Assembly (NCBI RefSeq): GCF_013283745.1
Contig: NZ_JABSTZ010000003.1
Location: 124,001 to 188,000 of the forward strand
DNA from: Aeromicrobium stalagmiti
GTDB taxonomy: Bacteria > Actinomycetota > Actinomycetes > Propionibacteriales > Nocardioidaceae
Reading direction: 5' to 3'
DNA length: 64,000 nt
Shown here piece by piece: positions 10,241 to 14,489 of the stretch. The notes under the pieces were generated by a model. That model searched no databases. It saw only the letters and a list, made by a program, of their open reading frames with translations, and was not told where the DNA came from. Both the position numbers and the translations under genes were made by a program. Each line of letters starts with the position of its first letter. The first letter of the stretch is position 1.

Positions 10241-11143
10241 ATGCCGGGCATGCCCCACACGACGGTCCCGACGTCGATCCCCGTCGCGTTGAGGGCCGTG
10301 CAGGGGGCCACCGTGCCCGGCAAGGTGACGGGAGCGTTCCTGGAGTCCAACGGCGTCCCTGCCGGTGAGGGCAACCACCTGGTCGGCCTGCTGCGCGCCC
10401 TCGGCTTCGTCGACGGGGCGGGCCGCCCGACCCTCACGTGGAACCGCTATCGCCGCCCCGACCAGTCGGCCGTCGTGCTGGCGACCGCCGTCCGAGCCGC
10501 GTACGCACCCCTGTTCGAGCGTCACGCCGACGCCTACGCCCACTCCGCGACGACCCTCGCCAAGGTCGTGCGCCGTCACACCGAGTACGCCGAGCACCAC
10601 GTCGAGCGCACCGCCGAGTGCTTCCTGGTGCTGTGCGCCTACGCGGACTTCTCCGTCCCCGTGCTCTCACCGGCGCGCGAGCCGTCCTCAGATGTCGTGC
10701 AGCTGACCACACGTGAGCGCCTGACCGCGGTGCGGCGCCTCGTCGCCGCCCACACCGAGGCGCTCGACTGCCTGCACCACGACCTCACCCGGCCCGCGTA
10801 CGTCTCGGCCTGGAACGGCTTCGCGGCCATGGCCCTCACGATCCTCGCGGCCGGCGACTTCTCCGCGGCACGGGCCGTCAGGCCGTCGTGGAAGGGCGCG
10901 ACCGTCGAGGACCTCTCGATGCACACCAGCGGCGCGCTGCTGCTGGAGATGCTGTCGCGGCTGGGGCTGTGCGACCTGGCCGAGGTCGATGACCTCGGCA
11001 TCCTGCTGCAGCGCCGCCACGACTGCGCCCACCCGACGTTCTTCACCCCGACCCCCGACGAGGCGGCGATCTACCTCAGCGAGGTCGTGGCAGCCGCCCT
11101 GGTGCTGCTCGGCCGGACCCAGCAAGGGCCTACCGCGCCCTGA
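10241..11143 (+). CDS. DUF5343 domain protein with C-terminal HEPN-like region
   Basis: This is a 300-residue protein. Residues 1-90 match the DUF5343 pattern (HTTVPTSI near the start, GAFLESNG, HLVGLLRALGF), which is probably a DNA- or RNA-binding winged-helix unit found in some defence-associated proteins. The C-terminal half is all-helical and contains RHDCAH at about 270-275, an R-x4-H motif of the kind that forms the active site of HEPN ribonucleases. The nuclease reading is inference; the motif is short. The ATG follows a GGGGA ribosome site (about 10232-10236). The gene stands alone and overlaps the convergent methyltransferase gene by 14 bases. The function is unknown. Confidence 0.65.
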   Translation: MPGMPHTTVPTSIPVALRAVQGATVPGKVTGAFLESNGVPAGEGNHLVGLLRALGFVDGAGRPTLTWNRYRRPDQSAVVLATAVRAAYAPLFERHADAYAHSATTLAKVVRRHTEYAEHHVERTAECFLVLCAYADFSVPVLSPAREPSSDVVQLTTRERLTAVRRLVAAHTEALDCLHHDLTRPAYVSAWNGFAAMALTILAAGDFSAARAVRPSWKGATVEDLSMHTSGALLLEMLSRLGLCDLAEVDDLGILLQRRHDCAHPTFFTPTPDEAAIYLSEVVAAALVLLGRTQQGPTAP

Positions 11144-11933
11144 GCTCCCAGCACGCCACGGCGACGGACGACGCGACGTTGAGCGAGTCGATGTCGGCGG
11201 CCATCGGGATCGTCACGCGGTGGTCGGCGGCCTGCTCCCAGTGCGACGTGAGCCCATGGCCCTCCGACCCGACGACGAGGGCGAGGCGCTCCACGTCGTG
11301 GCCGACCTCGTCGATCGGCACCGAGTCGTCGGCCAGCGTCATGGCGTACGTCGTGTAGCCGGCGTCGCGCAGCAGGGACGGCGCGGCGTACCAGTCGTCG
11401 ACCCGGGCGTAGGGCAGCCAGAACACCGAGCCCATCGACACCTTGATCGCGCGCCGGTAGAGCGGGTCGGCGCACCGCGGAGAAAGCAGCACCGCGTCGA
11501 AGCCGAGCGCCGCGACGCTGCGGAAGATCGCACCGACGTTGGTGTGGTCGGCGAGGTCCTCGACGACCACGACCCGCCGGGCGGCGGCGAGCACCGACTC
11601 CGGTGACGGCAGGTCGGGCCGCTCGAGGGCCGCGAGCGAGCCTCGGTGGACGTGGAACCCGGTCAGCTGCTCGATCGCGTCGTCGTCGAGCACGAAGCAC
11701 GGCGCGTCGCTGGCGTCGAGGATGTCGGCGAGACCGTCGAGCCACCGCGGAGACATCAGGAACGACCGCGGCGTGTGCCCGGACTCGACGGCCCGCCGCA
11801 CGACCTTCTCGCCCTCGGCGAGGAAGAGACCACGCTCGGACTCCAGCCTCAGACGCAGCTGGACGTCGCGCAGATCGGTGTAGTCGCGGAGCCGCGGATC
11901 GTCGAGGTCGTCGAGTCGTACGATCTGGGCCAC
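11130..11933 (-). CDS. TrmH/SpoU family RNA 2'-O-methyltransferase
   Basis: This 267-residue SAM-dependent methyltransferase has an N-terminal substrate-binding segment (about 1-95) and a SPOUT catalytic domain with its three motifs: [14 protein letters not shown] (about 141-154), [10 protein letters not shown] and [15 protein letters not shown] at the C-terminus. Such enzymes methylate ribose in rRNA or tRNA; the target nucleotide cannot be told from sequence. The GTG start at 11933 was chosen because TACGCT lies six bases upstream, typical of a leaderless promoter, and no ribosome site is visible. It is divergent from the PEBP gene with only 18 bases between the start codons. Confidence 0.9.
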
Positions 11934-11951
11934 CGGGCTAGCGTAGAGGGC
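11934..11951. promoter_or_regulatory. overlapping divergent leaderless promoters
   Basis: Eighteen bases separate two divergent starts. TAGCGT (11939-11944, plus) lies seven bases before the ATG at 11952, and TACGCT (11940-11945, minus) lies six bases before the GTG at 11933. The two -10 hexamers share five base pairs. Confidence 0.6.
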
Positions 11952-12479
11952 ATGAGCCTCGACCGACCCGTCACACCCGATCCCTACCCGCTGCTGCCCG
12001 CCACGGCCTCGTTCTCGGTGACGAGCGACGACGTGACCGACGGCCAGCCCCTCAAGGACGACCAGGTCAACGCGCACGGCGACACGTCGCCTCAGCTGTC
12101 GTGGAGCGGCGCCCCCGAGGGCACGAAGTCGTACGTCGTGACCTGCTTCGACCCTGACGCGCCGATCGTCTCCGGCTTCTGGCACTGGGTCGTCGCCGAC
12201 ATCCCGGCCGACGTCACCGAGCTGGCCGCAGGCGCCGGTGCGTCCGACGAGACCCTGCCGGGCGCGGCGTTCCACGTCCGCAACGACGGCGGCGGCCTCG
12301 GCTTCATGGGGGCTGCTCCCCCGGCCGGTGACCAGGTGCACCGCTACTTCTTCGTCGTGCACGCGGTCGGTGAGGAGACCCTCGGAGTCGACGGATCGGC
12401 CACTCCGGCCGTCGTCGGGTTCAACCTGGCGTTCAAGACCCTGGGCCGCGCGATCATCCACGGCACCTACGCCCACTGA
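11952..12479 (+). CDS. YbhB/YbcL family PEBP-like protein
   Basis: This 175-residue protein belongs to the phosphatidylethanolamine-binding protein family (bacterial Raf-kinase-inhibitor-like group). The ligand-site signature is present: [20 protein letters not shown] at about 48-67, then [14 protein letters not shown] and the [10 protein letters not shown] segment. No signal peptide is seen, so it is likely cytoplasmic. Bacterial members have no firmly assigned role. The mRNA is predicted to be leaderless, with an AGAGGG sequence just before the ATG that could also serve as a ribosome site. Confidence 0.9.
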
Positions 12480-12491
12480 CCGCCTGCTCGG

Positions 12492-13317
12492 TCAGCCCCC
12501 CGCGAGGGCCGCGTAGCGGTTGGCCCCGTCCAGCACGCTGCGGACGTACGCGTCGGAGTGGTTGTAGGAGAACACCGCCTGTGTCCAGCCGGCGCCGGTC
12601 GTGAGATCGGCGCCGGACGCACACAGGTAGCGCCCGGCCGCGTAGGCCGCGTCGTAGATGTTGTGGGGGTCGGCCGTGCCGTCGTCGCTGCCGTCGGACT
12701 CCCACCGCTCCCACGTCGACGGGATGAACTGCATGGGCCCCATCGCGTGGTCCCACCGCTCGTCGCCGTGCCATCGCACGGACCTGGAGTCGGACCGGAT
12801 GGCCGCGAGCCCGGCCGAGCCGTCGAGGGCGGGGCCGAGGACCTTGCGCGACGTCGTGCCGCCGGTGCGCAGCCGTGCACCGTCCGAGGTGCCGTGGCCC
12901 GACTCGACGCGGCCGATGCCGGCCAGCGTGGTCCAGCCCAGGCGGCACGCCGGGCTGTCGTCCGCGATCCGCAGCGACGCGGCGCCATAGGCGTCGACGG
13001 CCACCCGGCTGATCCCCGTGGATCGCGACACGTCGTCGACCCACGCGGCCGACACGCCGGACGACGACGGCTCGGCCCCGGCTGACTCGTCGTCCGGCCG
13101 CACCGGCGACATCGTCGTGGACGGCACGGGCGGGGCGGTCGGTGCGGGCTGAGCTGACGGTGCGGACCGACCTGGCTGGGCCGAGGTGGTCGTCTGCGGC
13201 CGCGCCGCGAAGGAGGCCACCGCGATCAGCGCCGCGACGCCGGCCAGCGCGACGGCGACCCCCAGCAGCAGCCCGGACGTCGACCGGTCGTCGTGGGAGT
13301 GGTCAGGGACGTCTCAC
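12492..13317 (-). CDS. lytic transglycosylase-like protein, N-terminus in a different frame (+1 shift)
   Basis: The main frame (12492-13313) encodes a secreted muramidase-like protein. A hydrophobic signal (GLLLGVAVALAGVAALIAVA) is followed by a Pro/Ser/Thr-rich linker and a transglycosylase domain with the likely catalytic Glu in GRVESGHG, plus AMGPMQFIPSTWERW and a C-terminal AVFSYNHSDAYV. That frame has no ATG, GTG or TTG before the signal peptide; the first is an internal GTG at 13220 without a ribosome site. A GTG at 13317 reads four codons (GTG AGA CGT CCC) and then TGA. A +1 shift at CCC-TGA-C joins it to the main frame and gives a normal N-terminus, MRRPDHSHDDRS. Either this is programmed frameshifting or a one-base indel. 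Confidence 0.75.
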
Positions 13318-13326
13318 CTCGGCAGT

Positions 13327-13360
13327 GCGAGGAGCCCGGGTCTGTCCCGGGACTCCTCGC
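13327..13360 (-). terminator. hairpin after the SPFH-NfeD-ABC operon
   Basis: GCGAGGAG and CCCGGG pair with CCCGGG and CTCCTCGC around an ACAGA loop: a 14-bp stem with a one-base bulge. It lies 14 bases beyond the SPFH stop and before the transglycosylase start. No U tract. Confidence 0.65.
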
Positions 13361-13373
13361 CCAGCTCGACGGA

Positions 13374-14489
13374 TCAGGCCTGCGGAGGCGTCCCGCCGGC
13401 CGGCGGGGGCGGCGGCGCCTGCTCCTGGGTCGGCAGGTCAGCAGCCGACGTGGCGGGGTTCTCGGCGGCCTTGGCGGCGTTGAGCGCCTCCTGGACGGCC
13501 TCGTTGGTCGCCGCGTCCTGCTCAGTGACGTCGTCCTCGATCTCCGAGTCGTAGTCGACGCGCGTCTTGCTGCCGCCGCCGTCCATCGGGATCGAGCCGA
13601 TCGTGCCACCGAGGGTGCCCAGCGCCTTGGTGAGCTCGGCCGGGATGATCCAGGTCGTCGCGTTGTCGCCCTCGGCGATCTTCGGCAGCATCTGGAGGTA
13701 CTGGTAGGACAGCAGCTTCTGGTCGGGGTTGCCGTCGTGGATCGCCTGGAAGACGGTCTGGATGGCCTGCGCCTCACCCTGGGCGCGCAGGATCTGCGCC
13801 TGACGGTCGGCCTGCGCGGTCAGGATCTGCGCCTGGCGCTCACCCTCGGCGGTGAGGATCGCCGACTGCTTCTGGCCCTCGGCCGTGAGGATCGCCGACT
13901 GGCGCTCACCCTCGGCAGTCAGGATCGCGGCGCGCTTGTTGCGCTCGGCGCGCATCTGCTGCTCCATCGCGTCGATGATCGACGGCGGCGGGTCGATGCC
14001 CTTGAGCTCGACACGGTTGACGCGGATGCCCCACTTGCCGGTCGCGGAGTCGAGCTCGCCGCGCAGGCCCGAGTTGATCTGGTCACGGCTGGTCAGCGCG
14101 TGCTCGAGCGTCATGCCACCGGTGATGTTGCGCAGCGTGGTCATCGTGAGCTGCTCGATGGCCTGGATGTAGTTGGCGATCTCGTACGTCGCGGCGACCG
14201 GGTCGGTCACCTGGAAGTAGATGACCGTGTCGATCGAGACGACCAGGTTGTCCTCGGTGATGACGGGCTGCGGCGGGAACGACACGACCTGCTCACGCAG
14301 GTCGATGACGTAGCGCACCTTATCGATGAACGGCATCACGATGTTCAGGCCGGCCGACAGGGTCGTGCGGTACTTGCCGAATCGCTCGACGATCCCCGAT
14401 CGCGCCTGGGGCACGATCTTGACCGTCATCGAGACGACCACGATCGCCAGGACGGCGAGCAGGACGAGCACGATCAGTGCTGCGGACAT
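13374..14489 (-). CDS. SPFH/Band 7 (stomatin-like) membrane protein
   Basis: This 371-residue protein has one N-terminal membrane helix (residues 3-24), an SPFH domain (about 25-190, including VPQARSGIVERFGKY, VSIDTVIYFQVTDP and LRNITGGMTLEHALTSRDQI) and a long coiled coil built from five 11-residue repeats of the AILTAEGERQS type at about 190-245. A Pro-rich tail follows. Stomatin-like proteins form ring scaffolds in membranes and often act with NfeD partners, here the gene directly upstream (TGATG overlap). The AAGGAG ribosome site supports the ATG at 14489. The likely role is membrane microdomain organisation or protein quality control. Confidence 0.92.
   Translation of the reverse strand: MSAALIVLVLLAVLAIVVVSMTVKIVPQARSGIVERFGKYRTTLSAGLNIVMPFIDKVRYVIDLREQVVSFPPQPVITEDNLVVSIDTVIYFQVTDPVAATYEIANYIQAIEQLTMTTLRNITGGMTLEHALTSRDQINSGLRGELDSATGKWGIRVNRVELKGIDPPPSIIDAMEQQMRAERNKRAAILTAEGERQSAILTAEGQKQSAILTAEGERQAQILTAQADRQAQILRAQGEAQAIQTVFQAIHDGNPDQKLLSYQYLQMLPKIAEGDNATTWIIPAELTKALGTLGGTIGSIPMDGGGSKTRVDYDSEIEDDVTEQDAATNEAVQEALNAAKAAENPATSAADLPTQEQAPPPPPAGGTPPQA
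13789..13953 (-). repeat. five 33-bp in-frame repeats in the SPFH coiled coil
   Basis: AGGATC on the plus strand recurs exactly every 33 bases (13789, 13822, 13855, 13888, 13921), matching five hendecad units of the coiled coil. Recent DNA-level similarity suggests the units can expand or contract by recombination. Confidence 0.75.

Follow-up and report, generated by a model that had tools for sequence, protein, structure and literature searches.

Warman, Grainger and co-workers have described bidirectional promoters in Escherichia coli and Salmonella, in which transcription starts on opposite strands lie 7-25 bp apart, usually 18, and the bases -7T and -11A are reciprocal (PMC10268837, in the accessible part of that article). 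According to the accessible part of a second article (PMC12825309), two polymerases cannot occupy such a promoter simultaneously, five out of five promoters tested in E. coli were too weak at the basal level for competition, and interference lowered cell-to-cell variation at the one promoter checked for noise. Bidirectional promoters are normally detected only through RNA-end mapping. A second body of work concerns leaderless genes, of which the hexamer TANNNT about 12 bp 5' of the start codon is a mark (PMC3160421, accessible part). In Mycobacterium tuberculosis, the accessible text of PMC5648196 describes the divergent genes lysG and lysE, which have overlapping promoters, an intergenic region of 108 bp that contains a site for a regulator, and one leaderless lysE transcript that starts from a second, non-overlapping promoter.

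In this study, a window of 64,000 nucleotides from Aeromicrobium stalagmiti (contig NZ_JABSTZ010000003.1, positions 124,001-188,000) was analyzed, and positions below are those of the window. A SpoU/TrmH-type RNA methyltransferase gene (11130-11933, minus strand, 267 aa) and a PEBP gene of the YbhB/YbcL family (11952-12479, plus strand, 175 aa) stand back to back, and an initial annotation had proposed that they share one -10 box and may be expressed in mutually exclusive bursts.

The site resembles the E. coli and Salmonella promoters in having a putative -10 common to both strands, in its predicted 18-bp class and in the potential for polymerase competition (accessible parts of PMC12825309 and PMC10268837). 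By hexamer position, the base-paired -11A/-7T on opposite strands that defines the 18-bp class is present in its TAGCGTA, and the start separation predicted from the start codons is 18-19, the value being 19 rather than 18 if each transcript begins exactly with the first base of its start codon. Unlike those promoters, its predicted starts are the start codons themselves, without leaders, the intergenic region spans only 18 nt, and its -10, as read from sequence, has the degenerate form TANNNT typical of high-GC Actinobacteria. With the leaderless genes of PMC3160421 and of the Propionibacterium acnes maps (PMC3848588), it shares the signal, its position and the use of both GTG and ATG starts, but here one signal is common to two genes that point away from each other, an arrangement unmentioned in the accessible parts of both articles. 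It is like lysG-lysE in its divergent genes, its overlapping promoters and, by prediction, its leaderless transcription, and differs in the features of that intergenic region and second promoter given above. A literature search, mostly outside subscription journals, found no title or abstract opening on two leaderless genes with one -10; published start-site maps may contain such cases. The principle of a shared bidirectional -10 is already known, and the SpoU/PEBP site appears to be a very compact, recurrent and leaderless version of it.

Materials and methods

Genes were called by codon usage, ignoring promoter motifs, over 864 kb of the host genome (40 stretches and the window). Within Aeromicrobium, all 48 upstream regions of methyltransferase orthologues were read. 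The family test covered 15 genomes of 15 genera with the pattern CAY-N5-6-TANNNTA-N5-6-RTG and used all 33 TANNNTA and all 55 control ATNNNAT places found, and the phylum-wide search covered 60 genomes, in which 29 sites beyond the host genome were examined, one per genome.

Partner genes were scored by an automatic test, which missed the PEBP partners of loci L127 and L158-L160 and the DinB partner of L216, all of which were found by tblastn. The test scored L148 as head-to-head through an alternative GTG; this locus was scored as split in the counts because its conserved PEBP start is 36 nt distant. The counts 42, 6 and 15 below rely on tblastn for L127, L158-L160 and L216, and on L148 as split.

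Results

The identities assigned to the two genes in the initial annotation agree with Pfam, the methyltransferase product matching SpoU_methylase (PF00588, E=2.1e-36) and the PEBP product PF01161 (E=1e-37). Both start codons, ATG at 11952-11954 on the plus strand and GTG at 11933-11931 on the minus strand, are backed by N-terminal conservation among relatives as well as by the codon-usage gene call, and 18 bases (11934-11951) lie between them, as had been noted. Read directly from the sequence, the PEBP box TAGCGT (11939-11944, plus strand), whose first base is 13 nt 5' of the ATG, and the methyltransferase box TACGCT (11945-11940, minus strand), whose first base is 12 nt 5' of the GTG, overlap by the five base pairs originally reported (11940-11944), a core that can be read in either direction. 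Their union, TAGCGTA (11939-11945), is an instance of TANNNTA. The whole gap between the genes would be made up of this putative shared -10 and two short discriminators, and at 18 nt it justifies the earlier description of an extreme promoter compaction. None of the -35-like strings TTGAC, TTGCC, TTGANA or GNTTNG was found at -35 distance in either direction. A sigma-70 consensus scan of 10500-13500 found no promoter, an outcome that says little here because the scan was modelled on TTGACA/TATAAT and is hardly informative for this genome.

Among 753 sampled starts of the host genome, TANNNT began at -12 in 94 and at -13 in 33, together 127, the mean per position from -50 to -20 being 2.4. The PEBP box at -13 and the methyltransferase box at -12 occupy these two peak positions of the leaderless signal, and both mRNAs therefore probably begin at their start codons, a point that the initial annotation overlooked. 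The base following TANNNT at the 127 leaderless -10s was C in 54, G in 47, T in 21 and A in only five, among which is the window site; the symmetric TANNNTA is thus rare and is no by-product of the leaderless motif. The sample contained 113 divergent pairs, of which only three had a gap below 30 nt.

We infer the start sites, the two-way activity, the leaderless translation and the steric exclusion of two polymerases from this arrangement, and consider it very probable that TANNNTA is the single symmetric -10 of a bidirectional promoter with both mRNAs leaderless from their start codons. The RNA polymerase holoenzyme would load on TANNNTA in either orientation. The A (base 2) and T (base 6) of one hexamer, -11 and -7 in the usual numbering, would pair with the T (base 6) and A (base 2) of the other, so that the same melted base pairs would serve both directions. 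Rightward transcription would begin at ATG 11952 of the PEBP gene or within about one base, and leftward transcription at GTG 11933 of the methyltransferase gene. Leaderless mRNAs would need no Shine-Dalgarno site, which would leave the 18-nt gap all promoter, and any -35 contacts would fall within the first codons of the partner gene. Two polymerases at once should not fit on the site. The mutually exclusive bursts proposed initially find no support, since in E. coli the two directions did not compete at basal activity and interference lowered noise (PMC12825309, accessible part); mutual exclusion in time is neither shown nor would be expected at low activity.

A methyltransferase orthologue is present in 48 of the 49 genus genomes; the exception is G009, where the sole match was to a distant homologue. 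The gene appears in several partial matches in two genus genomes (G006:C2:647511-650466 and G024:C46:99770-110898), which suggests duplication or rearrangement.

Comparison of the 48 loci showed that the motif is shared, where it lies with respect to the two starts, and that it is conserved. A head-to-head PEBP partner with a 17-18 nt spacer occurs at 42 of them, with 31 distinct spacers. Locus L007, from A. ginsengisoli, is arranged in this way too. The two TA steps are unchanged in all 42, and the methyltransferase TANNNT lies at -12 in every case; this constancy and a geometry that fits both starts uphold the proposal of one -10 common to both genes. Parsimony changes per column, counted on a midpoint-rooted tree built from proteins, some of them truncated, were 2, 13, 15, 13, 8 and 7 before the motif, 0, 0, 9, 5, 0, 0 and 0 within TANNNTA, and 6, 4, 11, 6 and 5 after it. 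Judged by this invariant TA...TA against repeatedly changing neighbouring columns, the shared motif is more than chance.

The symmetry of TANNNTA would also suit the operator of a regulator controlling both genes in place of a -10, and one other pair carrying the motif (PNP/TetR, below) has a longer conserved block, also where the TetR gene was not found. However, the inner letters of the SpoU/PEBP motif occur in five versions (TACGCTA, TAGGCTA, TAACCTA, TAGCCTA and TAATCTA) and its flanks vary freely, whereas the motif lies at the distance from either start that is usual for leaderless -10s of the genome, which makes the operator very unlikely.

It is also conceivable that TANNNTA serves one gene only, the other being transcribed from inside its neighbour. 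A rival -10-like site for the PEBP gene, TACGAT (11919-11924, plus strand), lies inside the methyltransferase gene and could provide a leader of about 20 nt, and TANNNT occurs at this position (-33) in 18 of the 42 paired loci. However, it is absent from the other 24, and the site lies within codons constrained by the protein sequence. In the opposite direction, -12 is the sole position within 160 nt upstream of the methyltransferase at which TANNNT occurs in at least five of the 42 loci. Furthermore, methyltransferases and PEBP genes that stand apart from each other retain TANNNT, as described next, and a one-way promoter is accordingly rated unlikely.

The close pair is absent from six of the 48 genus loci, and all six retain the methyltransferase TANNNT at -12. 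In L139, 85 nt separate the two start codons, and in L148, 36 nt; the stretches retrieved for L141, L143, L144 and L146 yielded no PEBP gene. Comparison with L148 revealed a separate -10 for each gene; in this locus, an in-frame GTG that could also start PEBP lies only 18 nt away from the start codon of the methyltransferase, and base 7 is T. Base 7, which corresponds to the first T of the partner's box, is G in five of the six split loci and T in one, and never A. The pairing state changed three times on the tree. Outside the genus, a PEBP gene is nearby in 58 of 68 named loci, and L079 is the sole locus in which it lies less than 100 nt from the methyltransferase (39 nt). These lone PEBP genes have TANNNT at -12/-13 in 37 of the 58 cases, followed by C in 26, G in eight, T in three and A in none, and TANNNTA within 45 nt upstream of PEBP was found in none of the 58. 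Sequence comparison with relatives thus gives indirect support for use in both directions, as TANNNT is retained at -12/-13 in six of six split methyltransferases and in 37 of the 58 lone PEBP genes.

In one Nocardioides locus that was translated (L047), a siroheme-synthase-like gene sits between PEBP and the methyltransferase. Simple loss of this intervening gene was rejected as the origin of the close pair, since a homologue is present in 49 of 49 genus genomes, some of them partial, with 45-51% identity for the full-length ones; in the host genome, the match is about 113 kb distant. The gene has therefore moved, or the matches are paralogues, and the history of the PEBP/methyltransferase locus is one of rearrangement, which may have gone in either direction.

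Recurrence was likewise established by sequence comparison. In the host genome, the pattern CAY-N4-8-TANNNTA-N4-8-RTG occurs at seven places, four of which are head-to-head coding genes: SpoU/PEBP, PNP/TetR, AidB-like/BrkB(YihY)-like and DinB-like/TrmB-like. The Pfam family of the last is Methyltransf_4, a protein that we take to be TrmB. With three further cases in the same genome, the SpoU/PEBP site is no singular oddity. An accidental letter match between abutting genes, without meaning, would be in keeping with the raw counts, in which TANNNTA is not enriched (seven, or ten with the pattern reversed, compared with 12 for ATNNNAT and 24 for AANNNTT), so that gene context had to be brought in. 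This context sets TANNNTA apart: the four of seven head-to-head places compare with one of 12 for ATNNNAT, itself with an antisense-looking frame, and, for AANNNTT, with a single site that was hit twice, 15 of its 24 places having been examined. In the family test, the strict rule gave head-to-head gene pairs at 12 of 33 TANNNTA places versus one of 55 ATNNNAT places (Fisher p=1.7e-5). Together with the unchanged TA...TA of the 42 paired loci, this renders chance overlap extremely unlikely.

The rule was relaxed because the strict version missed lower-GC genomes, and under the relaxed rule, fixed after the strict outcome was known, the figures were 17 of 33 (including the doubtful L322) versus one of 55, with two controls, L380 and L391, cut by contig ends and thus unable to pass the relaxed rule, although the strict rule was open to them. 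These 17 sites represent about 11 distinct pairs, YihY/AidB recurring in six genomes and SpoU/PEBP in two. The sites were picked by motif and hence yield an association, not the fraction of such gene pairs that use the motif. Among the 17, the PEBP/methyltransferase pair of L335, in a genome assigned to another genus, has a spacer identical to that of the named locus L009, and the two are probably from the same organism.

The AidB-like/BrkB(YihY)-like pair with TANNNTA was seen in the genus of the window (L083) and in five other genera (L325, L326, L329, L331 and L360), with 61-81% protein identity, and its site is a candidate for a deeply conserved two-way promoter. In L361 (G111, contig C6, about 164622-164646), two genes that we read from their sequences as rmlA-like and rmlB-like stand head-to-head, 19 nt apart, around TAAGGTA, an apparent two-way promoter for two enzymes of a single sugar pathway. 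In L085 (G000:C15:168056-168078), TAGGCTA adjoins the start of a gene that we read as M13-peptidase-like, on the leaderless side; on the other side is a gene that we read as siderophore-interacting-protein-like, with its ATG about 19 nt past TAGGCTA. The two genes may thus have a -10 in common, with a leader on one side.

In the phylum-wide search, three of the 29 examined sites had open frames of at least 100 codons on both sides, one of which looks non-coding by base composition; as AT-rich genomes swamp the pattern and only these three qualify, no general claim is made beyond the family. A divergent pair in L166 (15171-15194), 24 nt apart around ACACTAGTGT, has two TAGTGT boxes with a 2-bp overlap, each lying 7 nt away from a start codon, and resembles the published 23-bp class.

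Base 7 was then compared as a marker of pairing in the four pair families. It is A in 42 of 42 paired versus none of six unpaired SpoU/PEBP loci of the genus. For the other three families, also within the genus, 30 loci each were examined, out of 46 (TrmB), 48 (YihY) and 49 (PNP) genomes with any match; among these, A is found in 15 of 15 paired versus one of 15 unpaired TrmB/DinB loci, in 16 of 16 versus 11 of 14 YihY/AidB loci, where some loci scored as unpaired may have partners missed by the automatic test, and in 13 of 13 versus ten of 17 PNP/TetR loci. A strict rule in which A occurs only when paired fails in two of the four families (YihY/AidB and PNP/TetR), and since A is kept there without a recognised partner, TANNNTA alone is no proof of two-way use. 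In L292-L308, the block TCGTAATGTACGGCAG 5' of the gene for purine nucleoside phosphorylase hardly varies, also where a divergent TetR gene was not found; it might be an operator that overlaps with the -10.

Discussion

For the family Nocardioidaceae, we tentatively propose, as a possibility at somewhat short of even chances, a recurrent module of the form start codon-N5-6-TANNNTA-N5-6-start codon, which would fuse two leaderless genes back to back on a single -10. The A at base 7 would act in it as an evolutionary switch, acquired or retained once a second gene adjoins and dispensable after the partner has left, and two-way promoters and their evolution might then be readable from sequence. 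Provided that neither transcript has a leader, each start codon indicates a start site, and promoters of this kind could be traced together with their evolution in DNA. The model, if true, also assigns distinct roles to the bases of the window site: T11939 would matter for the PEBP gene only, A11945 for the methyltransferase only, and A11940 and T11944 for both. In addition, the arrangement suggests a route of promoter gain, in which a gene lands on the back of its neighbour's -10.
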